The notes under the pieces were generated by a model. That model was not told the origin of the DNA and made no database searches. It worked only from the letters and a program-made list of their open reading frames with translations. A DNA stretch of 64,000 bases from Trichomonas vaginalis G3 (taxonomy: Eukaryota; Parabasalia; Trichomonadida; Trichomonadidae): positions 24,285,411-24,349,410 of the forward strand of contig NC_067203.1 of assembly GCF_026262505.1 (NCBI RefSeq). Reading direction: 5' to 3'. Made by a program: the position numbers and the translations under genes. This document shows, piece by piece, positions 44,101 to 63,439 of this stretch (position 1 is its first letter; each line of letters begins with the position of its first letter).

Positions 44101-44559
44101 TCAGTAAGGAAACGCAGGAGTTTTACGATTTATTTGTGGTGTAGGTTCTGGTTTAAATGTTGGAGTCGGTTTTGGAGTTGACTTTTGAACAGGAGTTTGT
44201 AATTCCATAGGTTCAGGAGTCATTGAAGGTGTTGTTTGTGAAGGCGTTGGTTTTGGCGATGGTGTCGGAGTTTGTTTAACTTCAGCTACTTCAGTATTAT
44301 TTACAACATTTGCTTTATTTCTTTTCAACATCATTACTGCTCCTGCTGTAGCTAGCAAACCTAGTGGGAGACCATATCTTATATAAGGACTTGACCAAAT
44401 GCTATTTTTGACAGGAGCTGGTGGAACACCTAACCTTGGTGAGACTGCTCTTTGCCATTGTGCAGCTCGTAAGAAATATTCAATAGGTGCTCCATAATCG
44501 TTTGGTAAAGTTTGTTTCATAGATGGTGAAGGTTCACGAGAGCTTGATGAAGAACTCAT
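44101..44559 (-). CDS. single-pass membrane protein with Pro/Thr-rich tail
   Basis: 152 residues: Ser-rich start, a segment APIEYFLRAAQWQRAV, a transmembrane helix (YGLPLGLLATAGAVMML, about residues 63-79), a short basic stop-transfer (KRNK), then about 65 residues of Pro/Thr/Ser/Lys. The arrangement suggests an anchored surface or virion membrane protein. It is next to the major capsid gene on the same strand. Confidence 0.7.
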   Translation of the reverse strand: MSSSSSSREPSPSMKQTLPNDYGAPIEYFLRAAQWQRAVSPRLGVPPAPVKNSIWSSPYIRYGLPLGLLATAGAVMMLKRNKANVVNNTEVAEVKQTPTPSPKPTPSQTTPSMTPEPMELQTPVQKSTPKPTPTFKPEPTPQINRKTPAFPY

Positions 44560-46191: not shown

Positions 46192-46620
46192 TTACTTCAT
46201 TATTCTCACTCTTCTTCTTGGCATTCGTGGTGGAAGTTGTTTCTTGACATTTTCAATGAACTGTACATTCTCTTTTGTCTCAACTTCTTTCACTGGTGGG
46301 TCAGGGTTCTTTGACTCGGTTTGCTTTTCAATGAAATTCACGAACTTTGCAATAAGCTCTTGGTTCGTTATTGAAAGAACATCTGGCTTCTTTTCTTCTT
46401 GTTCTATTGACTTTTCAGTTTGAATAGAAGGTTTTATATGGGCTTCACCCTCGGTGCCATGCACCTTAATGTTGTCGCTCTCTGCATTCGCTAATGGAAC
46501 CTTTCTTTTTCTTACGTATATTTTACCATCTTTACTCTGACTTACATAATAGAAAGGATGTTGTATTCCTCTTGCGTCATTTAATATAATAGACTCTCGC
46601 TCTGATTTTGACAAGCTCAT
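46192..46620 (-). CDS. basic protein with P.YYV...KDG...RKRK module
   Basis: 142 residues. Residues 8-45 hold IILNDARGIQHPFYYVSQ and KDGKIYVRKRKVPL, matching 20646 and 42504. A double-hairpin element (46438-46465) is inserted in frame and encodes KVHGTEGEAH near residues 52-61. The tail is coiled-coil then basic (PPRMPRRRVRIMK). Probable nucleic-acid binding (inference). Confidence 0.7.
   Translation of the reverse strand: MSLSKSERESIILNDARGIQHPFYYVSQSKDGKIYVRKRKVPLANAESDNIKVHGTEGEAHIKPSIQTEKSIEQEEKKPDVLSITNQELIAKFVNFIEKQTESKNPDPPVKEVETKENVQFIENVKKQLPPRMPRRRVRIMK
46438..46465 (-). repeat. double-hairpin element, copy in gene 46192-46620
   Basis: On the minus strand: stem GGTGC-ATG-GCACC, then GA, then GGGT-GAA-GCCC and ATG-like end CAT. 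In frame with the gene. Confidence 0.75.
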
Positions 46621-46665
46621 TTTACATCGGTTAAAGTTTTAATTTTGTTTTTTATCTGCAGTCAA

Positions 46666-46925
46666 ATGACTCAGACAAGTCCTACGGACAAGACCCAAGG
46701 GGTCATAGATGTTGAAGCATTGAAGAAAGAAATTCGCGAGCAAATTTTATCCGAACTGAAGGAACAAAAACAAGAACAAAAGCCAGAGAGACCAAAGAGA
46801 AAACTTAGTGAAAAACAACTTGCTGCATTAGCTGCTGGAAGACAAAGAACCCACGTTTGCTGGCGAAGAAAGCTAGAGAAGAAGCTGAAGCAAAAGCTAA
46901 AGAAGCTGAAGTGAAGAAAGAGTAA
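46666..46925 (+). pseudogene. small Lys/Glu/Ala-rich protein, C-terminal frameshift
   Basis: ATG 46666 (MTQTSPTDKTQGVIDVEALK). Charged helix to about residue 60, then a one-base indel near 46847 separates it from a frame rich in Ala/Lys/Glu that ends KKE at 46925. The uninterrupted frame instead gives an Arg/Leu/Lys-rich end. Function unknown. Confidence 0.6.
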
Positions 46926-46949
46926 ATGGTTTATTTTTATTGGAACTAA

Positions 46950-47807
46950 ATGTATAGACAAATACCTTTATCTGTTGCGTTCAGTAGTGAAAACCCTGAC
47001 GTCAAAATAAAGGGGAACAGAGTAACGTTTAAGTTTCCAACAGACTGGATTGTGAACATAAATGAAGAAAAATATATTGGCATAACAAATATGTATATAA
47101 CACGTGCATTTAGGAAAGTTGACTTTATACTTCAAGTCGAGATAGAAAATGACGAACAGTCTTTAAGCGCCCAAAACATTCACATATACAAATACTTTAA
47201 AGACGATACAACATTGTTGCAATGTATGATTTCATTTAATGAAATGTTCGAGAAAAAGTTTAACATTGAAGTACAAACTTTACAGCCTTTACGTGAGTTT
47301 CTTGCACAACTGAAAGAAGAAGGTAGTCAGCCACAACTTATAGACTTTCATTATGAATTTAATGAAAATGAAGATGGAACTCATGACTGTCAGTTTGTTG
47401 TATTCTCACCATTCAATGAAGTCGCTAAAAAGAAAGAAAATCCATTACGTATAAGATTTCAAATCTCTGAACCAAGTGATGATTTCAAGAATGTTTTCAA
47501 TTATGATGCAATGCTTCCGAGGAAAAATGAATTTTCAAAGATTGTAACACCTGGCATTTGGGATAGAAAGCAAGCTATATTATATTCAAACTTAAGTAAG
47601 GGCGTTGAAAATGAGTTCATTGGTCATACAAGAACTTCACCACTTCCTAACCCTAAATACTATAAATTAACTGGCTTCAATCGTGAGTTTTGGATAGACA
47701 TGTTCTCCACTCATGACCATAACTGCCCAGTGTTCTTACCTCCAGACCATAAGGACTGTCTCTACATTGAAGCACAACTCTTAAACTCTACCATCGCAGT
47801 ATTGTAA
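46950..47807 (+). CDS. (F/Y).(Y/F)P..W-family virion-associated candidate
   Basis: 285 residues. N-terminal FKFPTDWIVNINEEKYIGIT matches the equivalent positions of 16464 and 62336. The middle is alternating beta and alpha, and the end reads CLYIEAQLLNSTIAVL, resembling the C-terminal strand CLYIESKIANVTGI of the minor capsid at 59423. It may be a capsid-associated jelly-roll or spike-base protein (inference). Convergent with PolB; the gap contains a double-hairpin element. Confidence 0.6.
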   Translation: MYRQIPLSVAFSSENPDVKIKGNRVTFKFPTDWIVNINEEKYIGITNMYITRAFRKVDFILQVEIENDEQSLSAQNIHIYKYFKDDTTLLQCMISFNEMFEKKFNIEVQTLQPLREFLAQLKEEGSQPQLIDFHYEFNENEDGTHDCQFVVFSPFNEVAKKKENPLRIRFQISEPSDDFKNVFNYDAMLPRKNEFSKIVTPGIWDRKQAILYSNLSKGVENEFIGHTRTSPLPNPKYYKLTGFNREFWIDMFSTHDHNCPVFLPPDHKDCLYIEAQLLNSTIAVL

Positions 47808-47814
47808 ATGACCA

Positions 47815-47842
47815 CATGGGCTTCGCCCTTGCCGCTAGCGGC
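47815..47842 (-). repeat. double-hairpin element, intergenic copy
   Basis: On the minus strand: GCCGC-TA-GCGGC, AA, GGGC-GAA-GCCC, CATG. It lies between the convergent stops of 46950 and PolB. It differs in stem sequence from the other three copies but pairs perfectly. Confidence 0.75.
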
Positions 47843-47888
47843 TTATTTTTATCATGAATGGTCTCACTGCTGACAAAAATAAATGACC

Positions 47889-50800
47889 TCAGAACTTCAA
47901 CTTACGAATAAAGCTTGTTTTAGTCGTTATTGAGAAGTTAAACTTTTCAGCAAAGCAAGGACTAGAAGACTTACATAAGTCAAATCCAATCTCTTGACCG
48001 TCATAAAGTGCTTTATATAACTGCATAACACTGAACTCAGAGTCTTTGTCAAATTTTCCTTGCGGAACCATTAAACCTTTATCTTCATCATAGAAACACT
48101 GAACAGAGTCAGGAAACATTTCATTAGCGGTTAAAGCAATAACATCTTGCTTCACGCCTTTCATTCTGCAGTGAAATGCAACTTCATTTAAATCGTTAGT
48201 GAGTAAGTCTATGTAGGTCTTCTTTCCACAAAATATTGACTTGTATGCTAAACTTTGTTTTCCAGGTGTTATTTCTGCGAAGTCGCTATGAAATTGACCT
48301 AATGTTTTACCAATAAGTTCTCTACCGTATCTCTTCTTAAATTCATGAGCTAAACGTGGTATGTCTTCATTGTAAATGTGCATCGAATCTGTATCCTGAT
48401 AAAATGCTTTTAATCCTAAGTCTTCAATCGTGCAAAACACTTCATTCATAATACGTTTTGACATTGATAGAATATTTACACCAAGTGGGCAAAAGTTAAA
48501 GTGTCTGCAAATGCTTTTCGTTAGCTTGAAAATAGTTTTATCTGAACCATCCAAACCTTCGAACTTCACTATATGGTTGTAATTTCTTATAGCATATCTT
48601 ATAGCATCTTTGTCATCTACTATGGTTATTTTTGACTCAATAGGAGATAAAATGGTTTTGCCATAAATACTGTTCAGAATGAGCTTTATAATTTCTTGTA
48701 ATGGGTTTTCTTCTTTCTTATACTTTAACCTTAACTCAAACAACTTCTTTACTTCATCTCTTATTCTAATATCTCTGTTTCCATCGTAATAGTATCCTTG
48801 CAACACTTCACATTTGACACCTTGATATTTTATGAGGTCTTGTAATGTTATATGGTCAACATACATTAAACAGCAAGTGTTTGAACTTCTGGGAACGTTA
48901 AGTTCTGGATTTAGTTCAGGGTCACAAACTATTAAAGGAAAGTGTCTATGTATTCCAATCTCTGTTATCTTAATGAGAACAAAGAAGCCAGACATAAACT
49001 TTTCACCAATGGGTTCCTTTTGGTCGTCATCGAATAAATGTCTCATGAGATACTCTGTGCTTAACATCTCATCCTTCAATACTTTTGGAATTCCTTCTAA
49101 AGTATAAAGTCTTGCTATAGCTGATGGATATAATGAAACAGCGTCGAAGTCAGCAATGAGTTTCTTTTTGCTCTTTTGTTTAATGTTATCTGACAACATA
49201 CATCTTCCACCTTGAATGCATCTCGAAATAAATTCTCTTGGTTTATTTGAGAGGTCATAAAGATTTCCATTCGGGAAGTACACTCTGTTCTCAAACAATT
49301 TGTTAGCAATAGAACAAATACTAACGTAGTCATAAACGTTTAAATCAAACTCTTTCAATAAGTCATTGCGGAACTTTACAAAACCTTCTCTTAAAATTCT
49401 TACATCTTGTTTGCAGTAAAACGTGCTATATTTTTCTAAGTCGAAGTGGTTCTCATCTATTCTGCAACCTTTGATGGAATCTATGTTCTTCATAAATGTA
49501 TCTGCATCCTTGACAAACTTACATGCTTCAGAAATGACACCAGTTCTGTTGTCATTTGCTAACAAAACACTGCTGTAGTAGTTATATGGAAATACTTCTT
49601 TCGGTCCTGTTTGTAAGTTAAACATAGCAGGAAATAGTTTAAGCTTCTTATTTATAACACTGTAAGAGTCTTTTATAATAATTGCCCGTCCTTTATATAA
49701 ACCAGTTATTTGCATTGTTCGTGAACCTTTAATGATGGGAGTTCCTTTCACTTCTGTCATGTGTCTTAAGATGAAGTTTATGTCATAGCTGAGGTTATGG
49801 AAATATATTAAACTCTTGTCAGGAAGTCGTTCCAAAAATTCTGTTGCACAGTTCTGACCCCAAATGCTTTCACTCACTGAACCATCTTCACTGTCGTAAC
49901 ATATGTTAAAAGCTTTATGAAAGCCATCGGTACTACACTCAAAGTCAGCAAAGAAAACGTGCTCAGGAATGAACTTGCACTTATTTTTATTTACTTCTTT
50001 TGACTCGGCTTTCTTCTTCAGTTGTACACAATACTTTGGAGCATATGTCAAATCTTTAAATGGTGCAAGGTTCTGTTTATATAAGTCAGTAGTATATGTG
50101 AAAAGTTCTCCATAAGAAATAGGTTCGAAATATTTGCACTCCCACAATGTTTTCATAACATCCCATAGCGGTGTAGTTCTATCATAACGAACTACATATT
50201 TGTTCTCTCTCTTTGTATATATTTTCATCTGTTTCTCAATGTTCATTCCACCACACTCCTTCAAGATTTCTTTGTAATTTCTGACGAAGTATGTTGTCAT
50301 TGGAAGTCTTTCGTTTAGCATGTAGTGGTCTTCAACAAGAAGTAGGTCAATAGTTCGAACAGTTTCACATTCTTTTGGTATGTATCTCTTTATTTCATTA
50401 TATCTTGAGTCATTGAAGTAACCAATGGTAACATTAAATGCTATACCTGTTGCGTCAGAAATTTCTTGTACTTTACTTTGAGGAAAGTCTCTAACACGAA
50501 TGACTTCTCTCATGTGGTCAATAGTTTCTTCATTTACTCCAGCCTGAATGCAAGCATAAACGAAACAATTGTCTTCTGTCATAAGTGTTGCAGTTCTTTT
50601 GTTCAGTTCATTGAAGATTTGGTAGCGTTCAAGATTTATAGGTAATGTGCAAAGATACTTCCAGAACTGACCGCTTCTCTTCTTATAAAACTTCTTTTCA
50701 CCATTATCTTTCCAAAAGCTTTCTATAAGTGCTGGGTTTCCTGTTTGCTTAAGAGCTTCCAAAATGGCTTTCTGGTCATTTGTCAGTGTGCTTTCATCTC

Positions 50801-51107
50801 TATATGGTCTCTTTTTTGGTTTGCCTTTCTTTACATCTGACATCGTTAAGCCTTCATATTCTGTTAAATCATACATCTTTATTTCAGTAAGATTCTTTAT
50901 GTTTGTCAAGAAGAAGTCATAGTGCATTTCAACAATACCTGCGGCATTTGCTTCTATCTCTGATATAAAGTTCTCCTTCAAGAGCTGATGTAGTAATGTT
51001 CCAATATTATTGAGGTTTAACGTAGAACATTCATACTTTCCACCAAGTTTATAACATACCATCCATCTCTGTTGTGAGTTTATTTTAATCTTCTCTAAGA
51101 GTCTCAT
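47889..51107 (-). CDS. protein-primed family-B DNA polymerase
   Basis: 1072 residues, the replicative enzyme of element III. From N to C: an OTU-like region (EDNCFVYACIQAG near 180, DHYMLNERL near 263); 3'-5' exonuclease motifs FFADFECST (near 386), HNLSYDINFIL and YCKQDV; palm motif A DFDAVSLYPS (near 652), motif B LILNSIYGKT (near 812), motif C YQDTDSMHIY (near 905). All catalytic residues are present, and the A-to-B distance leaves room for the TPR inserts of protein-primed polymerases. The start overlaps the upstream gene by 4 bp. Intact. Confidence 0.95.
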   Translation of the reverse strand: MRLLEKIKINSQQRWMVCYKLGGKYECSTLNLNNIGTLLHQLLKENFISEIEANAAGIVEMHYDFFLTNIKNLTEIKMYDLTEYEGLTMSDVKKGKPKKRPYRDESTLTNDQKAILEALKQTGNPALIESFWKDNGEKKFYKKRSGQFWKYLCTLPINLERYQIFNELNKRTATLMTEDNCFVYACIQAGVNEETIDHMREVIRVRDFPQSKVQEISDATGIAFNVTIGYFNDSRYNEIKRYIPKECETVRTIDLLLVEDHYMLNERLPMTTYFVRNYKEILKECGGMNIEKQMKIYTKRENKYVVRYDRTTPLWDVMKTLWECKYFEPISYGELFTYTTDLYKQNLAPFKDLTYAPKYCVQLKKKAESKEVNKNKCKFIPEHVFFADFECSTDGFHKAFNICYDSEDGSVSESIWGQNCATEFLERLPDKSLIYFHNLSYDINFILRHMTEVKGTPIIKGSRTMQITGLYKGRAIIIKDSYSVINKKLKLFPAMFNLQTGPKEVFPYNYYSSVLLANDNRTGVISEACKFVKDADTFMKNIDSIKGCRIDENHFDLEKYSTFYCKQDVRILREGFVKFRNDLLKEFDLNVYDYVSICSIANKLFENRVYFPNGNLYDLSNKPREFISRCIQGGRCMLSDNIKQKSKKKLIADFDAVSLYPSAIARLYTLEGIPKVLKDEMLSTEYLMRHLFDDDQKEPIGEKFMSGFFVLIKITEIGIHRHFPLIVCDPELNPELNVPRSSNTCCLMYVDHITLQDLIKYQGVKCEVLQGYYYDGNRDIRIRDEVKKLFELRLKYKKEENPLQEIIKLILNSIYGKTILSPIESKITIVDDKDAIRYAIRNYNHIVKFEGLDGSDKTIFKLTKSICRHFNFCPLGVNILSMSKRIMNEVFCTIEDLGLKAFYQDTDSMHIYNEDIPRLAHEFKKRYGRELIGKTLGQFHSDFAEITPGKQSLAYKSIFCGKKTYIDLLTNDLNEVAFHCRMKGVKQDVIALTANEMFPDSVQCFYDEDKGLMVPQGKFDKDSEFSVMQLYKALYDGQEIGFDLCKSSSPCFAEKFNFSITTKTSFIRKLKF

Positions 51108-51667
51108 GAAAACCTTACCGAAATGTTTGTGTAATATTCTCTGTTTGGTTCATCTAAAGCTTCGATGTTAAAGTCAATGAGTCTATTGCCTGACTTCACA
51201 TTTCTCTTCCTATTCTCTTCATCTTTCTTTAACCATCTCTCACCTTCTTTTGGTTTGTCGTCAATGGAACGAATGACATCGTTAGCTTTGCGAACTTGTT
51301 CTATAGCACTTTTAAACATCTCTCTTCTCTGTTGTTTCAGTGTGTCGTCTCTTCTTCTTGTTTCACCAACGTTTGCATTTGTTATGTCAAACATTTCTCT
51401 TCTTACTTCATGAGGTACTGAACGTCTATGATATAAGTCAATAGCAACGTCATTTAAAGGAAAAGTTCTTGCATGGACTTCGTCCTCGCCGCGTTGCGGC
51501 TTTATGAACTCATGAATTCTATCATAACTTATTGCACCATTATAGTCATTGAGGATGTCAGCGAGTGCTTTTTTGTTTGTCGCGTAATGTTTTGCAACAT
51601 CTATGTTAGCTTCTGTAAGAAGTTGTTTTATTTCCGAGTGTTCTAACTTAGACAACTTCCGATACAT
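51104..51667 (-). CDS. unknown protein co-transcribed with PolB
   Basis: 187 residues, charged and largely helical (RREMFDITNANVGETRRRDD, then LKQQRREMFKSAIEQVRKAN). Its stop overlaps the PolB ATG by 4 bp, implying linked expression; a role in priming or as a polymerase partner is possible but nothing in the sequence proves it. A double-hairpin element (51472-51500) is inserted in frame and encodes KPQRGEDEVHA near residues 56-66. Confidence 0.7.
   Translation of the reverse strand: MYRKLSKLEHSEIKQLLTEANIDVAKHYATNKKALADILNDYNGAISYDRIHEFIKPQRGEDEVHARTFPLNDVAIDLYHRRSVPHEVRREMFDITNANVGETRRRDDTLKQQRREMFKSAIEQVRKANDVIRSIDDKPKEGERWLKKDEENRKRNVKSGNRLIDFNIEALDEPNREYYTNISVRFS
51472..51500 (-). repeat. 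double-hairpin element, copy in gene 51104-51667
   Basis: On the minus strand: GCCGC-AAC-GCGGC, GA, GGAC-GAA-GTCC, ATG. In frame with the gene in the same phase as the copies at 46438 and 63325. Confidence 0.75.
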
Positions 51668-51757
51668 CTTTAGTAGGAAATAAAAAAATATTTTTTGAAA
51701 AAATTAGATTAGATTTTTTTAAGTTATTTTTCAAAATAATTTAATATTTTTATTTTA

Positions 51758-52231
51758 ATGAAACACATGCAAGATTGCAAGTTCTTTTCATACAATGCTC
51801 TCGCTACTGTCATCAAGAATGAGTTCAATGGTGCTTCAAACGTTAATGTTATCTTTAACAAGAAGTTTGTGAAAGAATCTAAGTTTGGTCAGTATGTCAG
51901 ACCATTAGCTATTGTCATTGACCGCAAACGTTATACTTCACAAGAGTTAGCAGTAGTTTTGAAACAAAAGGGTTTCTTCGTGAATGTCAAAGATACTCAT
52001 TATACTGTCATAAAGAACTCTAACATTGACTTCTTCAGTATTGCTTTAAATCTTTCGGAACAGAAAGAATATAAGAAGGGTGAAACAAATGTGAAATATT
52101 ATCCTTCATCTCTGAAGACAATAACGAACAAAGATGTTATACAGAAATTCTTACCAAAGGTTGAAGAAGCTTCAATTGACATTGACGAAGGAAGTGAAAT
52201 GGTTGAAGAAATTGACCCTGACGTTATTTGA
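51758..52231 (+). CDS. unknown 157-residue protein with acidic end
   Basis: Starts MKHMQDCKFFSYNALATVIK; beta-rich, Lys/Val-rich middle (RPLAIVIDRKRYTSQELAVV) and acidic tail EEASIDIDEGSEMVEEIDPD. The acidic end resembles that of 5643/29595, so it may be the element III counterpart in replication (weak inference). Located next to PolB. Confidence 0.65.
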   Translation: MKHMQDCKFFSYNALATVIKNEFNGASNVNVIFNKKFVKESKFGQYVRPLAIVIDRKRYTSQELAVVLKQKGFFVNVKDTHYTVIKNSNIDFFSIALNLSEQKEYKKGETNVKYYPSSLKTITNKDVIQKFLPKVEEASIDIDEGSEMVEEIDPDVI

Positions 52232-52249
52232 ACAAAAATATATTTTTGG

Positions 52250-52405
52250 TTAGTCTTCATATCGATATTTTACAACAATTCCCCAATGTATAAACTTTTC
52301 ATACGCTTTTTCATAAGCTTTATATACCTTCAGAAATTTTGCATAATCTTTTACATGTTGTTCGTTCTCTTCTTCTGTCATGAGTTCCGAATATTCTAAA
52401 TTCAT
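52250..52405 (-). CDS. 51-residue unknown protein
   Basis: Reads MNLEYSELMTEEENEQHVKD, then a Tyr/Lys-rich helix (YKAYEKAYEKFIHWG) ending VVKYRYED. ATG and stop are clear, it fills the gap between two other genes and is preceded by TTTTATCTCATATGAAAG, the usual leader motif. Too short for family assignment. Confidence 0.6.
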   Translation of the reverse strand: MNLEYSELMTEEENEQHVKDYAKFLKVYKAYEKAYEKFIHWGIVVKYRYED

Positions 52406-52458
52406 GTTCTTTCATATGAGATAAAATTTTATAAAAAATAAAATTAGCTTAGATTTTT

Positions 52459-53286
52459 TTATTCTTCCTCTTTGAAGTTATCGAAATATTCTGTTATTTT
52501 TTCCTTCAGTAATGGTAAGTCTTCTTTGAAGGTAAGAATTGTACAACCTTTAATATCATAGTGTGTTTGAGGAAGAGTACTTTTGACAATTTCCTTTATT
52601 TGCTCATTCGGTGTCATTGAAATCGGTAAGTTTTCACGATAGAACCAGTTTCTGTCAGATTTATATATTTTAGCGAGGTCATAAAAGCTCTTGTTGTTTC
52701 TTCTCACTAAATGCAACATAACCATATCTCTATCTTCTTCTTTCTCCATCTCTTCAGCGTAAATCATATACTTATAGCTTTTTTCCTTTCCTTTTGGTAC
52801 TGAACGTGGTATTCTTTTCTGTATGCTTTTGTCTTTGGATTCAATGACTTCATCTTTTGCTTGAAGTTTCTTTTCCATCTCTCCACGTTCTGCTTTATAT
52901 AGTTCATCTAACATCATGAAAATATAACAAGCATAACGAGGTGAAGCCCACATTGCTACAGCGTTTACTAAAAGTCTATGAACATAATAACCTTTCAAAC
53001 CAGGTGCCAAATTCTTGCGATTTTCGTACGGAATCTCTTCTCTCGGTTTTCCGAGGGAAGCAATCATATGAGGAAATTCTTCTAAAAGTTCTTTTGTCTG
53101 TTGGTTTTCAAACCAATGATATGCTTGCTTTGTAGAACGAAGAGCATTCATTATACTTTGCATTTGGTACATGTCATCTTTGACTGAACGAATGAGACGT
53201 AACTGTTTGTTATACTGTATGTATTCGTATTCTTCATTTATAGCTTCATGGACTATAACTGTTGTTGTGTTCTCTGATGTTGTCAT
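52459..53286 (-). CDS. KilA-N domain protein with DUF3627-like C-terminus
   Basis: 275 residues. The KilA-N region (about 20-125) includes RSTKQAYHWFENQQTKELLE and GYYVHRLLVNAVAMWASPRYA, the family's W-(A/I)-S-P-x-(F/Y)-A signature. A charged linker (EKKLQAKDEVIESKDKSIQK) leads to a C-terminal domain with MVMLHLVRRNNKSFYDL, as in viral KilA-N/DUF3627 proteins. Probably a DNA-binding regulator. ATG 53286 is preceded by the TTGTATGTAAAGACAGTA leader also used by the adjacent gene. Confidence 0.82.
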   Translation of the reverse strand: MTTSENTTTVIVHEAINEEYEYIQYNKQLRLIRSVKDDMYQMQSIMNALRSTKQAYHWFENQQTKELLEEFPHMIASLGKPREEIPYENRKNLAPGLKGYYVHRLLVNAVAMWASPRYACYIFMMLDELYKAERGEMEKKLQAKDEVIESKDKSIQKRIPRSVPKGKEKSYKYMIYAEEMEKEEDRDMVMLHLVRRNNKSFYDLAKIYKSDRNWFYRENLPISMTPNEQIKEIVKSTLPQTHYDIKGCTILTFKEDLPLLKEKITEYFDNFKEEE

Positions 53287-53374
53287 TACTGTCTTTACAT
53301 ACAAAATAAAAAAATAAATAAAAATAAAATTAGCGTTATTTTCTGACTTTCACAAAAGACCAAAAATAAACGCT

Positions 53375-53986
53375 TTACATGTATTTTTCAGCAACTTCGT
53401 CAAATAATTTTATAGCTTTATCTATCTCATCTACTTCAAACGTTTCTTTACCTTTCATGGGAGCACCATACATTTTCTCAAACTTTTCAAGTAGTTCTGT
53501 TTCTGCAGCTCTCATATCATTAACGAACACAACCTTGACTCTATTGACTGTACTGTCATATCTTTGAGTTATATTATATGTTCTTCCTATCTTATATCTC
53601 TTTGTATTGAAGTCCTTCGGTTTCTGAACGATGTAAAGTAAGCCTTCACTGCAACGTTCCGTATCGAATGAACCATAAGTTATGAAGTTATATCCAACAA
53701 CTGGGTCTAACCATAACAAAACTATTGGTATAAGACTTTTGTCTATAAGATATGCTCTTGTTCCATGAAATGCTACTGATATCATAAGCTCAGGATTTCT
53801 TGTCAAAATTTTCTGAGTTGAAGCATTTCTAACCCAGTCGTTTGTTTTCTTTCCAGATGGTGTTATAATGTCTGACAAAGAATATTTGTTGTATTTCTTT
53901 GAGTATCTTACGTTTAAATCACCTATTCTAACCACTTTGGTGTCATTGTCTATCTTTCTAACTGTTTCAAACTCAATGTTTGACAT
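53375..53986 (-). CDS. KilA-N / GIY-YIG (T5orf172) protein
   Basis: 203 residues, homologous along its length to 27090-27701 (motifs GLLYIV, YKIGRT). Substitutions are concentrated in the first 100 residues; the last half is nearly identical to the element I copy. Intact. The 3' flank (GCGTTTATTTTTGGTCTTTT, then AATAACGCTAATTTT) is also shared with elements I/II, but here it leads straight into the KilA-N gene instead of the repeat arrays. Confidence 0.85.
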   Translation of the reverse strand: MSNIEFETVRKIDNDTKVVRIGDLNVRYSKKYNKYSLSDIITPSGKKTNDWVRNASTQKILTRNPELMISVAFHGTRAYLIDKSLIPIVLLWLDPVVGYNFITYGSFDTERCSEGLLYIVQKPKDFNTKRYKIGRTYNITQRYDSTVNRVKVVFVNDMRAAETELLEKFEKMYGAPMKGKETFEVDEIDKAIKLFDEVAEKYM

Positions 53987-54052
53987 TACTGTCTTTACAT
54001 ACAAGATAAAAATTTTTCTTAGAAAAAATAATGTTTATGTTAGCATGTTAGA

Positions 54053-54082
54053 TCTAACACGTTTTCTAACCACTTTTCTAAC
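54053..54082. repeat. 12-bp-phased TCTAAC iterons (site 2)
   Basis: TCTAAC at 54053, 54065 and 54077, exactly 12 bp apart, with an inverted GTTAGA immediately before (GTTAGATCTAAC palindrome at 54047-54058). It lies beyond the 3' end of the gene at 54098. Confidence 0.85.
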
Positions 54083-54097
54083 ATCGAAGAAAACTAT

Positions 54098-55039: not shown

Positions 55040-55143
55040 ATCTTTACATACAAGATAAAAATTTTTCTTAGAAAAAAATTAGCGTTATTTTTCTTTCATA
55101 AGGAAATGTCAAAAATTCATGATTTTCGAGAGTTTTAGACCAT

Positions 55144-55187
55144 GTTAGAAAAGTGGTTAGAAAACGTGTTAGATCTAACATTCTAAC
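55144..55187. repeat. 12-bp-phased iterons, inverted (site 3)
   Basis: GTTAGA at 55144, 55156 and 55168 (12-bp steps), then TCTAAC at 55174 and 55182. Inverse of site 2; the two flank the gene 54098-55039. Confidence 0.85.
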
Positions 55188-55276
55188 ATAAATAAAGTTT
55201 ATGTTAAAATAAATGGTACCATTAATGATATCATGACTGTTCTCGTTCATGTCTGATTTACATCTAATGAAAAAGT

Positions 55277-56358
55277 TTAGAAGAATTTTCTTATTCTTTC
55301 TGGCTTATTTTTGTCTTTCCAGTACTCCCGCTCTAATGGTCCCAGATGTGTTGGCTTTGACTCTCTCAAGTTCTTAGATGGTATAACATCTTCAACGCCT
55401 CCTTCATATCTTACTTTATAAGTGTCATCGTTTATGTTATAGTTAAGTATTTCAATAACCACTCCTCGCTTTGCTTCGTCAATGGTTTCAGCAAGTTTGC
55501 CATTACTACTTTCGACTAATTTATGACGAGGATAAAACGCAATAGAGTCGTCAGCAGCTTTTATAAGATATCCATTACCTTGCGTAGAGTCTACGATATA
55601 ATAATTTCGACTTAACCTTAAACGTTTCTTTGTCAACGGTTTGTCGTCAAGAACTACACGAACTTTTGTACCAGGAATGAGGGTAAATTGTGTTGAATTT
55701 CTGATATTTTGTGTTTGGCTTCGTTTCTTTTGTATATACTTTTCTTCTTGTTGTTGTGTCATTGAATTTGGTGTATGTCCTGTTGTAGAATTTGTTGAGG
55801 AATTATATACTTCGAGAAAATGTTTCATTGTTTCTTCGGTAAAGTCTCGCTCTTGATTTAAATCTCTGAGCGTTCTTATGAAGCGATTAATGATACCTAT
55901 TTATGGTTATGGTCTTCAGTAGTGTAGTGAGTTATGTTATGCTTAATGAGAAATTCTGTGATTTCGTTGCTGAGGTATGCACTGTCTTGGTCTGATGTTA
56001 AAGTACTTGGGTTATGTTCTGCTACAAACTTTTGTAAAACTCTTAACACTTCACGAGTTCCTTTATTTCTCATTATATACGCAAAAGCTTTGCGAGTGTT
56101 AACATTTATGAAGATGAGGAATGGTTTATGTCCTCCTTTTCTGCTTTGAATGAGAGTGTCAAATTGGTATGCGTCTGGAGTGTTGGAGTAAATTGGTAAA
56201 AAGTAGTCGTAAGGGTTTATTTTTGTTTGATGTACAACATTTTTGTCAAAGAACTTTTTAACTTCAGCTCTGTTAGTAAATCCCCAACTCTTTGCAGCTT
56301 CATTGAACTTCTTAAATGACCTCCATGGATGTTGTTCGAATACTTCTTTCAAGCTCAT
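55277..56358 (-). pseudogene. rve integrase, single frameshift
   Basis: Two open pieces. The first (55897-56358) has an N-terminal subdomain, D67 (AYQFDTLIQ) and D123 (LTSDQDSAYLS). The frame is lost at an A-run near 55897, where one A appears missing. The second piece continues into RFIRTLRD and a basic C-terminus with SH3/Tudor-like strands (GTKVRVVLDDKPL, KVRYEGGVEDVIPS). At the position of the catalytic Glu, the DNA encodes Asn (IINRF). The gene is therefore doubly suspect. Confidence 0.85.
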
Positions 56359-56398
56359 TTATGTAAAAATAAAGATTTTATTCTAGGCTCAAGCGAGT

Positions 56399-59300
56399 TC
56401 ATTGAACGCGGTACCATGCGAATATAGTCACAAATGGTGGCATATAATCTACCCGAGCCTGTTGGATTTGTTGTGAAAGTGTGTGAATGATTTCCTGCGG
56501 TTCCACAGAAAATACCTGCGCTTGAATCTACTGGGTCACTTGAAATATCATATCTATGCATTCCCTGTCTATCCGAACCTGCTGCAAGATTTGTATAACC
56601 TCTTTTTGTTATTGAATGTGAATGACTACCTGTTGTGTTTGTAGTTCCTGTATGAGTGTGCGGTGGAAGGTTTGCTTCTTTAATTTTCTTCGAACCACCT
56701 GTTTGCTTTGAAGAGTTCGCACAATAGAGGAATTTATCTACAATCTGTTCCCACGTACCAAAACCTAAAACACTTGCCGGATTTGTTGAGTTCATTGACG
56801 TATAAATAGAGCCTATAGGATATATGGTTTCAAGAATCTGGGCCTTCATTGTTAGAAGTTCATGTTTAACGTTTATAGTTTTATTGCCTTCTACAATATT
56901 TATATTGTTTGTTATTAAACCATTAGGAAAAGTAGGAGGATAAATTCTTTGTTCTTGTACAGTTGCACCGTCTCTTCCTGTTTTTGTTACTATTTCGATG
57001 CATGCCTTAATTTCTTTAATCTTGATTGTTTGAAATTCTTCATGCACGTGCTCTTTATCGGCTTTTCCATTAAGCGCAGCATTTACTTCCGACTTCTTTG
57101 CATAATTTTCATCTACATAAGTTTTGTCGGCTTTCTTATCTAACATTGCTGGTAGTTCATGTGCTTCAAAGTTTCTGGCATGACCTTCAATATTCCTGCA
57201 ACTGTTATCTAAATTGTTTAGTGTATCTTTTACGCTTGTACTTGGATTCTCTAAAGGTGCACTTGAACCAAGGGTATAGTTCAATATTATGTCGTCTGCT
57301 CTAACAGTAGTGAAGGATTTATGTGTATGGTTCTTGTCGGCTTTACTGTCTAATGTAGCTTGAAGTTCATTTATATCGGAGATGTTGTGTTTATGAGATT
57401 TCAAAACTTTGTTCGTTGCTTCAAGTTCAACTTTGTCAGCTTTACTTTTAATAGCATCTTCAAACGTTATTTTTGACTTAACTCTCAAAGTAAATCTTGG
57501 TTCAACTAATACACCGTTAACATTGAAAGTAGAGGCATAAATTTCACCGGTATAACCAAATGCTTCTGGTGCTTTAGCTACATCATACTGTACAGTACAG
57601 CTTATGTCATAACCTTTAGCACGAATGTATTTATATCTTCTTTCATTAACATTTTTTGTCTTCGCTTCATCACTTCGTGTTAAATATCCATGGTAGTTCG
57701 TTATAATCTGTTCGTCTGAAGTTATATAATGAACGTGGTTCTTGACTTTATCACTCAGAGCTAAAAGCTCATTTTTGTTTGCTTTTTCGGCTAATTTCTC
57801 ATTAACATCATTCACTTCTAATTCAACTCTTCCGCCAGAACTCTTATTATCATTAATCTTTTTCATTAATTCGGTAATTACGTCATAAAGACTATATTCT
57901 GTTTTCGGTTTTGTAAATAATGAGTCAAAATTTCTTTTCATCATTACATCGCTGACATTAATGATATCACCAATTCCTTTTTCATTTATTCTCTTCATTA
58001 ATTCTGCAATAATGACGAATATATAATCTGTTAATTTATTCTCTTCATCGAGGGTTATAGAATGTTTTGAAATTGAATCATTAACTCCTCTAAATAAATC
58101 AATAACTTCAGGATACACGTTTTTAATGTCTCGAATAACCCGACCAGTATCCTGTTGTTCATGTTCTTCGTTCCCGTCGTTACGTGGTTTTATATCTCTA
58201 ACCATCATCAACGCAGCCATAACCGGAGGGTTTGTTGCTATCTGTTCGAAAATCCGTCCGTTATGTACGGTATATCTAAATAATTTCTTTGTGTTTGTTA
58301 AAACATTTGAAACAAGTCTTTTAAAACCATCTACAAAATTTCCTGTTTCACCTAATGTTCTTGCAGCATTTACAAGCTCACCCATTCCCGCTTTTGACCC
58401 CAAAAACGTCCATATTGCATTTATTTCACTCTGTATAGTTGTCCATTCAGCGAAACTAACACCCGCATTCGCTAAGCTGAAAATGAAATTCAGTGGATCG
58501 AACTTAATTCCACCTTCTTTTTCAATTTCAACGAACTCACTAACATGAGATTTTAAATATTCTTTCGTTAAAATTGTTTTCCCCGATGTTATGTCATTAA
58601 CGAAACTATCACCGTCAAAAGTTAACGAATTCAATTTCGTCGTTGATGCTTTTATTTCATACACCGCTTTATCGATAGTTTTTGGCTCACCTTCTTTAGA
58701 AGCATATGAAACATTAATGAATGAATTATATGTATTCATGAATGAATTAAAATCAATGATTTTCATTAATGACGCCTTTAATGATTCATTTACTGTCGAA
58801 TCCCTTAAAGTAATTAATGAACTGTCATTTATGAAAGGTACACTGCAAACCGTCGAGTTTGGATCAAATGCTATAGTTGGTGCAGGAATATTAATGATAT
58901 AAGTCATTAAATCATTAAGTGACGTAAATAATGTTGTCGTTTTTGATTTAATTTCTTTAGCATCTGTTATATATGGTAATTTTATTTCTGTAGTTTCTGA
59001 ATTAAAGATATTCGCTAAAATGTTTTGTAAACTGTTTTGAACAGCTGTGTAAACCGTTGAATCCGGAACTCTTACGATTTCACCATCCTTAATAAAAGGC
59101 ATTGTACATGGCGTAGTGCTTGGGTCAAATCTTTCGGGATTATAATTCAACATATATTCTAACGCTTCATGAACAGACTTATATACTGTTGTGTCGTTCT
59201 TCATGACAACTTCACCATTTACAATGAATGGCATAGTGCATGGAGTTAAAATGGGGTCAAACTTTTCATAGTCCTTCCATGTTATGTATTTCTCGGTATT

Positions 59301-59405
59301 TCCATCACTGATAACAATATATTTGTCAGTAAGTGTGAGAGAGTATTGACCAAAATATAAACGTTTAGCTCTGTCAGCTTCATACGCATATGCAGCTATA
59401 CTCAT
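56399..59405 (-). pseudogene. long fibre protein with phage-tail-fibre-like C-terminus, late frameshift
   Basis: About 1000 residues. The N-terminus has repeated modules of the type FDP..TPCTMPFI..GE(I/V)V with a following D.TVY..V segment (three to four copies in residues 45-250). A helical middle is followed by KADK/HTH fibre repeats (about 540-830), then YPIGSIYTSM (about 862), TGGSKKIKEANLPPHTHTG and a His-rich loop. The conserved ending MPPFVTIFAWYR is present but in another frame, after a one-base shift near 56450. Likely virion spike. Divergent from the minor capsid gene with only 17 bp between ATGs. Confidence 0.83.
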
Positions 59406-59422
59406 ATTTTAATGAGAATAAA
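59406..59422. promoter_or_regulatory. 17-bp divergent promoter
   Basis: ATTTTAATGAGAATAAA separates the fibre ATG (minus) from the minor capsid ATG (plus), so two virion genes share one very short control region. Confidence 0.5.
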
Positions 59423-60199
59423 ATGTTGTTCTATTTGCAAAGTACAGACCCAAACGAATACGGGACAGTAAAACTACAAACAAACTTAGGTCTACAGAAT
59501 GAGCCACTTGCATTCAGAATGGTTGACTTTAATACTATTGCTTCATTCGTTATAACTGACGAAACAGATTTCATGGAGCTTGAAATAGATGGAAAGAAGC
59601 ACGAAATAAGATTTCACAATAATGTAGAATATAAGATGGAAACATTAGCTGGAGTGTTAAATGCTCTCATAAATACTACAATAAACAAGGATAACGGAGA
59701 AAACTTAATGAATGTTAAACTTATTGCAGGAGTTTTGAAGTTCAGTTATGCGAAAGAGTTTAAGATACCAAGAATGAGTCATAGAGTACAACTTCTTTTG
59801 GGAGCATACCATATGACATTTCCTTTGAAAAGTGTTGACAAAACGATTGAGATGAAATCTGTTCCATACGTATGTTATGGCAATTGTTTGTACATTGAGT
59901 CAAAAATAGCTAATGTCACAGGTATTTCAGGAGTTAATAGTAAAGGTTCAGTAGAATATAAATCCTTCTGTTATGAAGTAAATTCAATGTTCATTCCAAA
60001 CGTTCCTGTCATAGCAACTCATTTAGGTAAATGGGTTCGCATTAGTCCTCATAATTTGAAAGACATGCAATTCAGACTTGTTGACTTTCAAGGAGAGCCT
60101 GTAGAACTGAAGGCACCAGTGCGAATGACTGTTGAAGTTGACTTTTTAGAAAATATTAAATGCAACAGCTTACAAGAGAACTCAGAGCTAAAAATATAA
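59423..60199 (+). CDS. penton-like minor capsid protein
   Basis: 258 residues, beta-rich. Starts MLFYLQSTDPNEYGTVKLQT; ends with the diagnostic strands KDMQFRLVDFQGEPVELKAP then VRMTVEVDF, matching the layout of Polinton minor capsid (penton, single jelly-roll) proteins, and aligning with 31315 of element II. ATG at 59423 gives the 17-bp gap to the fibre gene. Intact. Assignment by pattern. Confidence 0.75.
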   Translation: MLFYLQSTDPNEYGTVKLQTNLGLQNEPLAFRMVDFNTIASFVITDETDFMELEIDGKKHEIRFHNNVEYKMETLAGVLNALINTTINKDNGENLMNVKLIAGVLKFSYAKEFKIPRMSHRVQLLLGAYHMTFPLKSVDKTIEMKSVPYVCYGNCLYIESKIANVTGISGVNSKGSVEYKSFCYEVNSMFIPNVPVIATHLGKWVRISPHNLKDMQFRLVDFQGEPVELKAPVRMTVEVDFLENIKCNSLQENSELKI

Positions 60200-60399
60200 A
60201 GTATGAATGTTATGTATTAGGTCATGAACTTTGGTTGTTGCTGTTTGATGAAACAAATGAGTTAGTTATGTCAGTCAAGAGAACAGAAAAATATTGTGTT
60301 AGTGAAAACTGCACCAAGTCAATAAGATTAGGTTTGCATTATGAAGATGAGTTCGATACTGTTGAAGAAGTTTTGGATAGATATTACAAATTGCTTTAA
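60160..60399 (+). CDS. unknown 79-residue protein
   Basis: Starts MQQLTRELRAKNIKYECYVL within the last 40 bp of the minor capsid gene and ends overlapping the convergent gene by 4 bp. Mixed alpha/beta with Cys at about 17, 46 and 51. Its position beside the CCG-family gene parallels the gene at 8761/32708, with which it shares only vague similarity. Confidence 0.6.
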   Translation: MQQLTRELRAKNIKYECYVLGHELWLLLFDETNELVMSVKRTEKYCVSENCTKSIRLGLHYEDEFDTVEEVLDRYYKLL

Positions 60400-60896
60400 T
60401 TTACTAAAACATATTTCAAACAAAGCTTATAGTAAGTAGATAGTTTTGTATACTCGTTCGAATATTTATACTTAAACTCAACTCCTGGAGTACCTGGTGT
60501 TTCAATGATGCGGATGTTACCTATTTTCATGAATATTGGAGTTTGACCACAGCATTCGATTTCAGGGTCGAGATAGTCAATGACACATTGCTTTCCTGTT
60601 ATTCGTGATATAACATTTTCAAGGTCCTCCTTTGTTAGAATTATTTGGTTCTTACTTATAAGATTTGTCAAAAGCTTCTTATCGTCTTTGAGTAAAATTG
60701 TTTGGTATAACTGAAGAAGGTAATGGTCTACGTTATCTGAAGGATTTGTTTGAACATTTGTGTAAGGGTTGTCGTTGGCTTCTCTTGAAAGAACTTGGTC
60801 CAGTGGTGGATACTCTAACTTAACATCTGATGTAGCGTTAGCGTTTGAAGTTGTGTTTAAATTCACCGACTTAAGATCTGGTTCTTTTTCTTTCAA
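60396..60896 (-). CDS. EP(D/E)I.CCG-family protein (no ATG found)
   Basis: 166 codons. The C-terminal half (LDPEIECCGQTPIFMK, then VEFKYKYS) is homologous to 8158/32108. The open frame begins after a stop at about 60903 and contains no ATG near its start, only TTG at 60896. Either the start codon is mutated or a small indel hides it; the first residues are therefore uncertain. Confidence 0.65.
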   Translation of the reverse strand: MKEKEPDLKSVNLNTTSNANATSDVKLEYPPLDQVLSREANDNPYTNVQTNPSDNVDHYLLQLYQTILLKDDKKLLTNLISKNQIILTKEDLENVISRITGKQCVIDYLDPEIECCGQTPIFMKIGNIRIIETPGTPGVEFKYKYSNEYTKLSTYYKLCLKYVLVN

Positions 60897-60917
60897 ACAC
60901 CCGAACTATAGTTCTTT

Positions 60918-61469
60918 ATGACAATATTGTTTGTCGTTCGTGAGTCAACATTTGATGTTGGTTCAATTGGAACATTAACGGCACCAGCTAAGATGGATTT
61001 GCTTCTCATTTCATATAGAATAAAAACCTTTTATATGTATGAAATGAACAATATACTCGACAAGGGTTTGAATGTAAAGCTAACGAATGAAAATATTGTT
61101 GAATTCACTGAGACAGGAGCTGTGTATAAAGATGTAGAACTACTGAACAAAAGAGCAAAGGGAAGAAGCAGGAATATGAACAAAGGGTGGAAGCCTATAA
61201 AAATTTATGTCAATGATGGCTCAGGAGGTTCAAACATAAAGTATGCAGAAAGTTATAGAGTTTATGCTCTCAAAGGTGAAAAGCCTTCATTTAAGAACAG
61301 CTATTCTAACGCATATCCTCAAAAGCTAACGGATGGGGAAGTGGATGATATGAATGACAGCAAAAATATTAACAGAAATGGCGACAGAGATGCATGGAAT
61401 TTGTTTACCATCAGTCAATTGAAGGTTAACTTTAAAACAATGTTGGTCGTTCCCATGGAATATTTTTGA
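60918..61469 (+). CDS. unknown 183-residue protein
   Basis: Starts MTILFVVRESTFDVGSIGTL; basic middle (NKRAKGRSRNMNKGWKPIKI) and Asn/Asp-rich loops. Gene end overlaps the packaging ATPase 3' end by 38 bp on the other strand. Beta-rich, located in the virion module; possibly another structural protein. No family recognised. Confidence 0.65.
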   Translation: MTILFVVRESTFDVGSIGTLTAPAKMDLLLISYRIKTFYMYEMNNILDKGLNVKLTNENIVEFTETGAVYKDVELLNKRAKGRSRNMNKGWKPIKIYVNDGSGGSNIKYAESYRVYALKGEKPSFKNSYSNAYPQKLTDGEVDDMNDSKNINRNGDRDAWNLFTISQLKVNFKTMLVVPMEYF

Positions 61470-62319
61470 CTTTAATGGTATTAGTCATGATATGAATCTC
61501 AAGGTATGAACGAGGAGAGATGAGAGACTTATATGCTTCCCAAATTTCTTCAAAAGGTAATGTTATACCTGACTGTTTCCAAATGAGTTCAATATCATAG
61601 CGTGAGAAACCTTGAAAGATAACGAAGTCAGTTATGAGACGTTTTATGTTTAAAGCAAGGAAACGCCATGTTTGCATAAGTATTGCTACAGTTAAATGGT
61701 AATGTCTGACTTTAGTTATGATGTTAGCTAATGGTGAGTCAGGCTTTGACACTAAACCTTTTCCGGCGAAGTCGTCACAAACGAGCAGAGTGTTTGAAGG
61801 ATACTTTTTGAAGGGGTATTTTGAAAGTTTTGATAGAATGTAGTTTGTCAGTCGTTTCATATCGTAAACTCCTGAGTACTGACGTAAGTGGTGTTTGTCA
61901 ATAATTCTTTCCATCTCTTCTGAAGTCTTTTGCATTCCTGACTGTATGAACTCTACAATAGCATAATATTTTCTCTTACGTCGAATGTAACGTTGAAGAA
62001 ATTCAATGAGTTCGCTATCTGGAACTTTAACGACAGATGCTTGAACTTTACTCATGAATGTTTTCGCTGTTGAATCCATAGAGTCTGAAGTTGCTGATAT
62101 AATGATTTGGTCATAGTAAGAGTCGTTTCCTAAACGCTCTGTTATGAGTATATGACGAATGAGGTTAAATGTCTTACCTGAACCCATCTTTCCACAATAG
62201 AAATACACACCATTTGAACAGAATTCATAATCTTTGCTGAAAGGAAGAATAAGAGAAGAGTTAAGTTTGTCTGTAGTTTCATTCATGTCTTCATCTACGT
62301 CATGTATTAAATGCTTCAT
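61432..62319 (-). CDS. A32-type genome-packaging ATPase (element III)
   Basis: 295 residues. Walker A YCGKMGSGKTF (41-51), Walker B NTLLVCDDFAGKG (176-188), and a downstream TVAILMQTWRFL sensor-like strand. Same fold and order as 4262 but strongly diverged, showing the two Maverick lineages are old. Divergent from 62336 with 16 bp between ATGs. Intact. Confidence 0.9.
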   Translation of the reverse strand: MKHLIHDVDEDMNETTDKLNSSLILPFSKDYEFCSNGVYFYCGKMGSGKTFNLIRHILITERLGNDSYYDQIIISATSDSMDSTAKTFMSKVQASVVKVPDSELIEFLQRYIRRKRKYYAIVEFIQSGMQKTSEEMERIIDKHHLRQYSGVYDMKRLTNYILSKLSKYPFKKYPSNTLLVCDDFAGKGLVSKPDSPLANIITKVRHYHLTVAILMQTWRFLALNIKRLITDFVIFQGFSRYDIELIWKQSGITLPFEEIWEAYKSLISPRSYLEIHIMTNTIKVKNIPWERPTLF

Positions 62320-62335
62320 TTTATCTCCATTAAAA
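62320..62335. promoter_or_regulatory. 16-bp divergent promoter
   Basis: TTTATCTCCATTAAAA between the ATPase ATG (minus) and the ATG at 62336 (plus); contains the TTTATCT motif. Confidence 0.5.
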
Positions 62336-63214
62336 ATGCAAGTCAGAAATATTCAGAACATAGCACCGAGTCTAACTGACAAGAGTATAAAGATATACTA
62401 TGAACACGTTATGATGAAACCAACCAAAATTCAAGAAAGTCAGTATACTTATGAATATCCAAGACACTGGGTAGAGTATGTAGGAGGTGAGAAAGCTATT
62501 GAAATAAGACAAGTTAGAAGTATTCCAGCAGGAAGGACAATATTATTGAAGAACTTTAATGTTTTGAGATATAATGATGAAACAAAGAAGCAAGATAGTT
62601 TCCCTGTTGCTGTGTATGTGAACTTAGATACAGGAGATGACATGAAAGTTTTTAACACAAAGCTTCAAATGGTATTGAAAGAACAACTTATGCAGAAGGA
62701 CACCCATTACCTTCAGAAGTTACCATAGCATATAATTTTGAAACAAATGCAATAGATTTTAAAATCGCCTCTGCAAAGAAGTCAGGTTTTACATTTAATG
62801 AAGCAGATGTATATTCGAATGAAAACTTCAAAGCTATTGCATGGTTAGATAATGACGATTGCTTTAAGAAAATATTTAAATTCAGTGACTCAAAGATGTC
62901 AATAGATGACCTTCGTGGAATGTTACCATCGACGTTTACAGTTGAAGGCTCAGCAGGATTGCTTACAAGATTGTCAATTGGTGGTTTGGTCTCGTGAGAA
63001 CATTGTTATAAAATCCAGTATAAGTGAATTTGCTGAAGAATCTATATTATGTCTTTCAAACTACATGTATTCGCCACCGAAGCATTATAGTATAACAAAC
63101 TTTGTCAGTAAGTTTAACATAAGACTTGTCGAACCTTCTTCAATGAAAGATGTTGTGCTACCTAAAGATGGAAAGGATGGACTCATTATTGAGATGATTT
63201 TAATTGCATATTAA
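62336..63214 (+). pseudogene. (Y).YP..W-family virion-associated candidate, two frameshifts
   Basis: About 290 codons. N-terminal YTYEYPRHWVEYVGGEKAIE matches 46950 and 16464. Frame shifts occur near 62690 and near 62988; the three pieces are otherwise open and read in order. The end (LIIEMILIAY) is followed at once by the next ATG (TAAATG). Element III thus has two members of this family. Confidence 0.65.
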
Positions 63215-63439
63215 ATGAGCTTGTTCTTAAAGGTCGTTCATGATGAAATAACTGTTGTAGAAGATGTTAGCAATTGTTCAGACATTTTGAAGCGAATAGA
63301 TGAGATAAGAAAGAAGTTAGATAGACCGCAAAGCGGTGAGGGTGAAGCCCGTGAGAATGTTTATGTTTCATTGACTTTCTCCAGTAACGAGAACTTTTAT
63401 GAGATAATATTGAAGAGAGATGATTTTAATATGGTGTAA
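63215..63439 (+). CDS. 74-residue protein carrying a double-hairpin insert
   Basis: Starts MSLFLKVVHDEITVVEDVSN; a helix IDEIRKKLDR is followed by the in-frame double-hairpin peptide RPQSGEGEARE (residues about 36-46) and then a short beta-rich end. ATG overlaps the upstream stop context TAAATG. Function unknown. Confidence 0.65.
   Translation: MSLFLKVVHDEITVVEDVSNCSDILKRIDEIRKKLDRPQSGEGEARENVYVSLTFSSNENFYEIILKRDDFNMV
63325..63353 (+). repeat. double-hairpin element, copy in gene 63215-63439
   Basis: ACCGC-AAA-GCGGT, GA, GGGT-GAA-GCCC, GTG. On the coding strand and in the same reading phase as the copies at 46438 and 51472. Confidence 0.75.

Follow-up and report, generated by a model that had tools for sequence, protein, structure and literature searches.

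Short double-hairpin inserts in Maverick elements of Trichomonas vaginalis, a probable family of tiny mobile elements

Double hairpins of the window and their genes

The window analysed here, a stretch of 64,000 nucleotides from Trichomonas vaginalis G3 (contig NC_067203.1, positions 24,285,411 to 24,349,410), contains five copies of a GC-rich double hairpin of 25-26 bp, all within 46-64 kb, the part that an earlier note on this DNA called element III and that carries the genes of a Maverick. The basic unit follows a 13-2-11 plan: a 5-bp stem with a loop of 2-3 bases, a linker of two bases, and a 4-bp stem with a loop of three bases, usually GAA. Positions below are those of the window; genomic loci and proteins outside it carry L and P numbers.

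Copy 1 (GGTGC-atg-GCACC ga GGGT-gaa-GCCC, 26 bp; 46440..46465, minus strand; inserted unit of 27 bp, 46440-46466) lies in a gene for 142 residues (46192..46620, minus strand) whose one Pfam match, FAS_N, is below its cut-off. It codes for KVHGTEGEAH where an empty relative has a single Asn. Copy 3 (GCCGC-aac-GCGGC ga GGAC-gaa-GTCC, 26 bp; 51475..51500, minus strand; inserted unit of 27 bp, 51475-51501) codes for KPQRGEDEVH, again in place of a single Asn in an empty relative, in the frame that codes for the N-terminus of the Maverick's DNA polymerase of type B (51104..51667, minus strand). Copy 4 (ACCGC-aaa-GCGGT ga GGGT-gaa-GCCC, 26 bp; 63325..63350, plus strand) codes for RPQSGEGEAR in a gene for 74 residues with no Pfam family (63215..63439, plus strand), and copy 2 (GCCGC-ta-GCGGC aa GGGC-gaa-GCCC, 25 bp; 47818..47842, minus strand) occupies the spacer that separates the 3' ends of two convergent frames. 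These are the four copies of the earlier note; as it states, the three genic ones are in a single phase, in which GAA is read as Glu, and the remaining one is between genes. The note had overlooked a fifth (GTCC-tac-GGAC aa GACCC-aag-GGGTC; 46679..46704, plus strand; inserted unit of 27 bp, 46678-46704), genic, in the opposite orientation and in another phase. The 13-2-11 plan of this copy is read on the minus strand, its stems differ from those of the other four, and its peptide, SPTDKTQGV, lies close to the beginning of a short open reading frame which, by reading of the sequence, starts with the ATG at 46666 (46666..46700, plus strand).

A scan of both strands of the window for a paired GGNN-GAA-NNCC hairpin with a 5-bp stem upstream returned the four copies of the note and one weak match at 44420, with only three G/C in its first stem, whereas in 100 first-order Markov sequences full matches averaged 0.12 (maximum 1). 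A separate scan of the plus strand counted four double hairpins, where 20 second-order Markov sequences averaged 0.4 (maximum 2); it added the fifth copy and missed the one at 46440, because the T.G pair of the latter becomes C.A on that strand. These scans, together with reversed-pattern controls in the genome, reject chance palindromes as a source of the copies.

In a set of ten different units that represent seven kinds of site, several of the units being sister sequences, both sides have changed in six of the nine pairs (shuffled mean 1.8), as the earlier note had claimed for the stems. Covariation is 0.499 against 0.174 after shuffling, and in slid structures 27.8-40.0% of cells pair. Letters resembling a tRNA T-arm occur in two loci with an intergenic hairpin (L043 and L051), where ARAGORN finds no tRNA, and nine loci gave no Rfam 15 match at E up to 1.

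Precise presence or absence of the inserts and dispersal of identical units

Relatives of the three genes that carry copies 1, 3 and 4 do not all share the peptide at the same place, the point on which the earlier note had made its reading depend: empty sites occur for all three, in DNA and in protein, and the hairpin inserts are precisely present or absent. The copy-3 site is empty in 62 copies in the genome (at most two mismatches; control 0), and the alignment of four loci (L053-L056) to the window shows one exact gap of 27 bp. The flanks of this site in L053 are 98.0% and 98.3% identical to the window over 300 bp on each side; the right flank in L054-L056 is only 75-76% identical, which we put down to a 69-bp tandem repeat. 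This tandem unit (23 residues), variable in copy number, is found both in the polymerase N-terminus of the window, at about 51300-51440, and in L054-L056. At the protein level, seven of 13 polymerase relatives have the copy-3 peptide, five are without it and one is short of the site; the distant relative P0131 is without it. Two proteins (P0123 and P0127) hold another insert, of nine residues (FDITKPHDGAGVAHANVG), at a second polymerase site which is empty in the window (ACAAATGCA; 51374..51382, minus strand) and whose filled form is seen at the protein level only.

For copy 1, a genome search with two to three mismatches allowed gave one empty copy, L121, which reads ATTA^ATATAAAACC (the caret marks the point of insertion). 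Its peptide is absent from P0096, P0102 and 16 listed proteins of 60-68% identity, while P0093, P0098 and P0099 hold part of it. The copy-4 site, sought with an empty-site query based on protein P0153, is empty in 155 copies in the genome, 100 of them listed (at most three mismatches; control 0), and L057-L059 are without the 27 bp. The fifth-copy site is empty in 15 copies in the genome (control 0), of which L014 and L060-L062 were aligned; over the fetched loci it holds 0 bp in five cases and 27 bp in 17. The distant relatives without the peptides (P0131; P0105-P0120) point to gain rather than loss at the filled sites.

At other positions of the copy-2 spacer, inserts of 25 bp (AAAAATAA^ATGACC) and 27 bp are present or absent, and further inserts measure 63 bp at window position 58827, 33 bp at 58151 and 29 bp in L036. 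The 63-bp site is empty in the window (CATAA^ATGACAG; 58827..58828, minus strand) and filled in L031, L038, L042 and L048. In the region of 58150, L009 and L031 carry different hairpin-derived peptides at one and the same place of the gene, and L031 has a further 33-bp double hairpin just downstream. A less biased sample, drawn with a 151-bp probe free of hairpins (40 places listed, the first 14 fetched, one of them the window itself), gave 14 rows of clean indels, all of at least 24 bp, five of which are hairpin inserts and nine not. The five rows comprise a 24-bp insert in L068, one insert in L069 that measures 24 or 27 bp according to the partner, a 29-bp insert also in L069, and the nested module described below in L076.

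The empty DNA targets read CATAA^ATGC, ATTA^ATAT, ATGA^ATGA, GACA^ATAG, CATAA^ATGA, AATAA^ATGA and AATA^ATGA. Inserts are mostly at AA^AT, with CATAA^ATG recurring and the flanks otherwise unchanged. Usually 27 bp have been inserted, the double hairpin of 26 bp and a single A, and no A is added at the 25-bp spacer insert; the extra A either duplicates one base of the target or belongs to the end of the element. CATAAA stands to the left of the element at four of the 12 sites tabulated. A left flank CAT(A/T)AA with AT on the right was noted at four of the 12 (the polymerase site, the 58827 site, L113 and copy 1); these flanks could pair with each other and thereby turn the double hairpin into a cloverleaf.

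The lengths of the genic inserts are 27, 27, 27, 27, 33 and 63 bp, the 26-bp variants of the fifth site aside, and those of spacer or unassigned inserts 24, 24 (or 27, by comparison with a second partner), 25, 27, 29 and 29 bp, a contrast in multiples of three that rests on small numbers. Insertion in frame into unrelated protein genes is observed: at six of the seven genic sites compared the unit is in the same phase and yields a similar peptide. Genic inserts most often split an Asn AAT codon, with a hydrophilic K-P-x-x-G-E-G-E-A-H peptide as the result.

Genome-wide counts were made with fixed patterns and reversed-pattern controls; they are counts of copies, not of insertions, the majority riding on copied Mavericks. 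GGGYGAAGCCC occurs 1535 times (166 for the reversed pattern), GCCGC-N3-GCGGC-N2-GGGYGAAGCCC 14 times (0) and GCCGC-N3-GCGGC-N2-GGNNGAANNCC, in which hairpin 2 is GGNN-GAA-NNCC, 770 times (0), 98 of the 100 listed among the latter being the copy-3 unit. The nested module, with at most three mismatches, occurs 223 times (control 0). These pattern searches, used in place of the covariance-model scan that the earlier note had proposed, find far more copies than their controls. No exact match to the unit or the module was present in viral contigs, nor to the 32-nt module in bacterial and archaeal genomes, and no relatives of the polymerase N-terminus were found in viral contigs.

An identical unit is dispersed to unrelated genes, as mobility predicts. 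In 20 loci picked from the 100 listed places of the copy-3 26-mer, the same 26-mer lies at the polymerase site in 18 and within the copy-4 gene in two (L082 and L086); in P0149, too, the copy-3 peptide stands within the copy-4 gene. The two homes agree at eight of the ten nearest bases on the left (AGTTYATRAA), at three or four of ten on the right, and irregularly farther out (1-6 per 10 bases to 60). The likeness is confined to the vicinity of the insert: two unrelated genes have a similar target.

The unit also occurs in a long form of about 62 nt, in which two further hairpins are nested in loop 1; the 63-bp insert at 58827 is likewise a nested element. The 20 loci fetched for the nested module represent six contexts, 11 of the loci belonging to one. 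Eight long forms were folded, the cut for L115 leaving that element incomplete. While the inner module stays identical, the stem 1 that encloses it takes the forms GCCGC/GCGGC, GTCGC/GCGAC and ACCGC/GCGGT, with both sides altered; in L113 it is GACGC/GCGGC with a mismatch, and L104 pairs poorly.

The Maverick that carries the hairpins

The main frame of the polymerase, of type B and viral type, lies at 47889-51107 (minus strand; PF03175 match). The frame with copy 3 was assigned to its N-terminus from this neighbour and from the names of relatives, ten of 13 being called organellar and viral DNA polymerase type B, partial. In the window the polymerase is divided between two overlapping frames (47889-51107 and 51104-51667, minus strand), and many database relatives are labelled partial. 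Protein searches from the window lead to records of T. vaginalis G3, and domain searches show that KilA-N, an A32-like ATPase and an integrase core (rve) are also coded in the region, together with a T5orf172-domain protein (53375..54004, minus strand; PF10544, E 3e-08), a domain which we take to be GIY-YIG-like; this is the Maverick/Polinton gene set. A protein of 1016 residues (56355-59405, minus strand) combines a phage Gp10 C-terminal (baseplate) domain with phage-tail repeats, as if a tail-fibre-like protein resided in a Maverick, and a DDE transposase gene (DDE_3, Transposase_1; 42867-43994, plus strand) stands beside the third element.

Of the first 30 loci of the GGGYGAAGCCC search, 29 match the Maverick sequence of the window, three of them only partly; the sole locus without such a match, L046, is also without the first hairpin. 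Four nested-module loci were extended: another type-B polymerase occurs in L117 and L118 (PF03175; the L118 match falls slightly short of the cut-off), KilA-N and a VapE/DUF5906 protein in L119, and the integrase in L120. The polymerase of L117 and L118 has no tblastx match to that of the window, which places the hairpins in at least two Maverick lineages. This diverged gene holds two hairpin-derived peptides, and one of its sites is short in L117 and of the long nested form in L118. Hairpins outside Mavericks were not seen among the samples read, host genes not having been surveyed. Microsatellites of AAAATAAAATAA in L023, L028, L037 and L052 differ in length by up to 120 bp among Maverick copies.

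Origin of the inserts and comparison with known hairpin elements

The empty sites, the genome copies and the 26-mer shared by two genes support the view of the earlier note that a tiny palindromic mobile element is tolerated inside proteins. We conclude that the inserts very probably belong to one family of mobile elements, tiny and non-autonomous, which consist of GC-rich hairpins only and ride in Mavericks. The unit would enter mostly at an A-rich AA^AT site, usually with one added A and the flanks kept, and selection in genes would remove inserts outside the tolerated length and phase.

Several observations weigh against this conclusion. That 90 of 90 cells are paired in the ten units is partly circular, the units having been chosen as hairpins, and pairs decay: 17 of 18 units read at the fifth-copy site have a non-Watson-Crick pair (two rows of the spacer decay table were set aside as false matches). 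Decay is common there in length as well, seven of 29 loci holding an out-of-frame 26 bp. G.T exceeds A.C on the 13-2-11 strand by 8 to 2, an excess that does not reach significance and that the Y in the fetch pattern biases. In the window the left junction of copy 4 is altered, the bases just left of the copy also differing from the empty site, so that it is not clean (L082 has a clean junction in this gene), and the very position of copy 2 gave no clean empty allele. In P0105-P0120 the replacement region is of low complexity, so that the alignment there is loose. With 18 of 20 copies at one site, independent insertions are far fewer than copies, and the ten or so similar bases on the left of both homes of the 26-mer leave room for transfer by short homology. 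The inserts of 24 bp in L068 and L069, 29 bp in L069 and 33 bp in L031 lie off AA^AT, and the target in L036 is ambiguous, its two partners differing. Finally, the support consists of sequence comparison; recombination among Maverick copies can also spread filled and empty sites, and neither a mobilising enzyme nor an intermediate was identified.

Transposition in the manner of bacterial REPINs and their RAYTs (REP-associated tyrosine transposases), in which a Y1 HUH transposase would move the hairpins as single-stranded DNA beside an A-rich guide, would account for paired hairpins, absent or minimal target duplication and a preferred flank. It is nevertheless very improbable, as the profile of Y1_Tnp (PF01797) has no match in the genome, in a search that was positive in five of 14 control genomes and did not extend to diverged HUH families. 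A second alternative is local template switching or short-homology transfer, by which quasi-palindromes would be made in place by DNA polymerase, or copied between Mavericks at similar flanks, in the absence of any mobile unit. Tandem duplications nearby and the eight of ten left bases shared by the two homes of the 26-mer agree with it, but a 32-nt module in six contexts and a 26-mer in two genes cannot be explained by events made in place, and most other targets are alike only in the A-rich letters beside the insert; we consider it very unlikely. A third explanation would regard the intergenic copies as termination or poly(A) signals. Mimivirus and virophages follow a hairpin rule at transcript ends, and copy 2 does lie between the 3' ends of two convergent frames; the other copies are nevertheless inside open reading frames, and one hairpin of the copy-2 spacer occurs in only part of the copies. 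As a general account this has very little probability, and it is possible that some intergenic copies have been exapted as transcript ends. Least credible of all is a functional peptide, a K-P-x-x-G-E-G-E-A-H tag (linker or protease site) that Mavericks would add to several proteins: a similar peptide in one phase at six of seven genic sites would suit it, but one copy is intergenic and one genic copy is in another phase and orientation, spacer inserts measure 25 and 27 bp, empty alleles are many, and stems are kept by double changes.

How elements of this family might move can be proposed only tentatively. The spreading form may be a folded single strand, either DNA that Maverick replication displaces or RNA that is copied back. 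AAT sites with nicks or breaks, perhaps the work of a Maverick-coded nuclease, would capture it. The kept pairing and the nesting fit such a form, and type-B polymerases of this kind are protein-primed and strand-displacing. The T5orf172 protein is a candidate for the target-cutting nuclease, by co-residence only. It is conceivable, if somewhat doubtful, that a gene-less folded strand of 26-62 nt parasitises a virus-like transposon, is copied and inserted through Maverick replication, nests in its own loop in cloverleaf-like fashion, spreads among the Mavericks of a nucleus with no organelle DNA to draw on, and repeatedly adds peptides to viral proteins, the DNA polymerase among them.

Hairpin elements like these have so far been curiosities of organelles and bacteria. 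The many near-identical, chromosome-assembled Mavericks with filled and empty alleles make the target rule, the duplication and the turnover directly measurable. The present data suggest that an element of about 26 bp can parasitise a eukaryotic virus-like transposon and that the proteins of the latter, with the polymerase among them, accept in-frame insertions repeatedly. Among the open-access titles and abstract openings listed, no report of hairpin or palindromic elements in Trichomonas or in Mavericks/polintons was found, and the available part of one of these papers (PMC12695648) does not treat them. Compared with miniature inverted-repeat transposable elements, which have the terminal inverted repeats and target duplication of a known DDE transposon, the units are hairpins with a duplication of 0-1 bp; a parent transposon was sought among the domain matches of the window.

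According to the accessible part of the source, short palindromic repeats of Volvox are also nuclear, and its authors judge the nuclear copies to be inert transfers from organelles (PMC2670323); the nuclear copies of Trichomonas differ in having precise presence/absence alleles. REPINs are described, in the section available, as non-autonomous hairpin pairs of bacteria (PMC3116915), and are alike in this pairing; REPs (repetitive extragenic palindromes) are extragenic by name, and a Y1 transposase, which goes with them, was not found in the T. vaginalis genome with the Y1_Tnp profile. The likeness to Rickettsia palindromic elements (RPEs) drawn in the earlier note is fair as a concept, but the anatomy is nearer to fungal mitochondrial double-hairpin elements (DHEs). 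RPEs, palindromic repeats which, as here, stand in frame in unrelated proteins, are bacterial and of about 100-150 bp, whereas the Trichomonas inserts are double or nested hairpins of 24-63 bp. The excerpt consulted names Rickettsia proteins that bear RPEs (PMC2635572). Mitochondrial GC clusters of yeast (GC42) are, in the part of the source available, small GC-rich palindromes whose targets bear short direct repeats; their stems change less than their loops, and the clusters merge and shuffle, all points of likeness (PMC4478555). They are flanked by AG or ACT, mostly intergenic and mitochondrial, in contrast to the mostly AAT target and nuclear location in Trichomonas.

By analogy, then, the anatomy appears closest to fungal mitochondrial DHEs and yeast GC clusters, the in-frame habit to RPEs. 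DHEs were reportedly described in the mitochondria of Allomyces by Paquin et al. in 2000. They are reported to share with the Trichomonas units two adjacent GC-rich hairpins, short loops and a short linker, and a sporadic, precise presence or absence in AT-rich DNA. Trichomonas hydrogenosomes have no DNA, and the window and the listed loci are on contigs of 20-40 Mb rather than in a mitochondrial genome. The hairpins described here are nuclear, reside in virus-like transposons and are often in frame in proteins, and their likeness to DHEs is one of structure.

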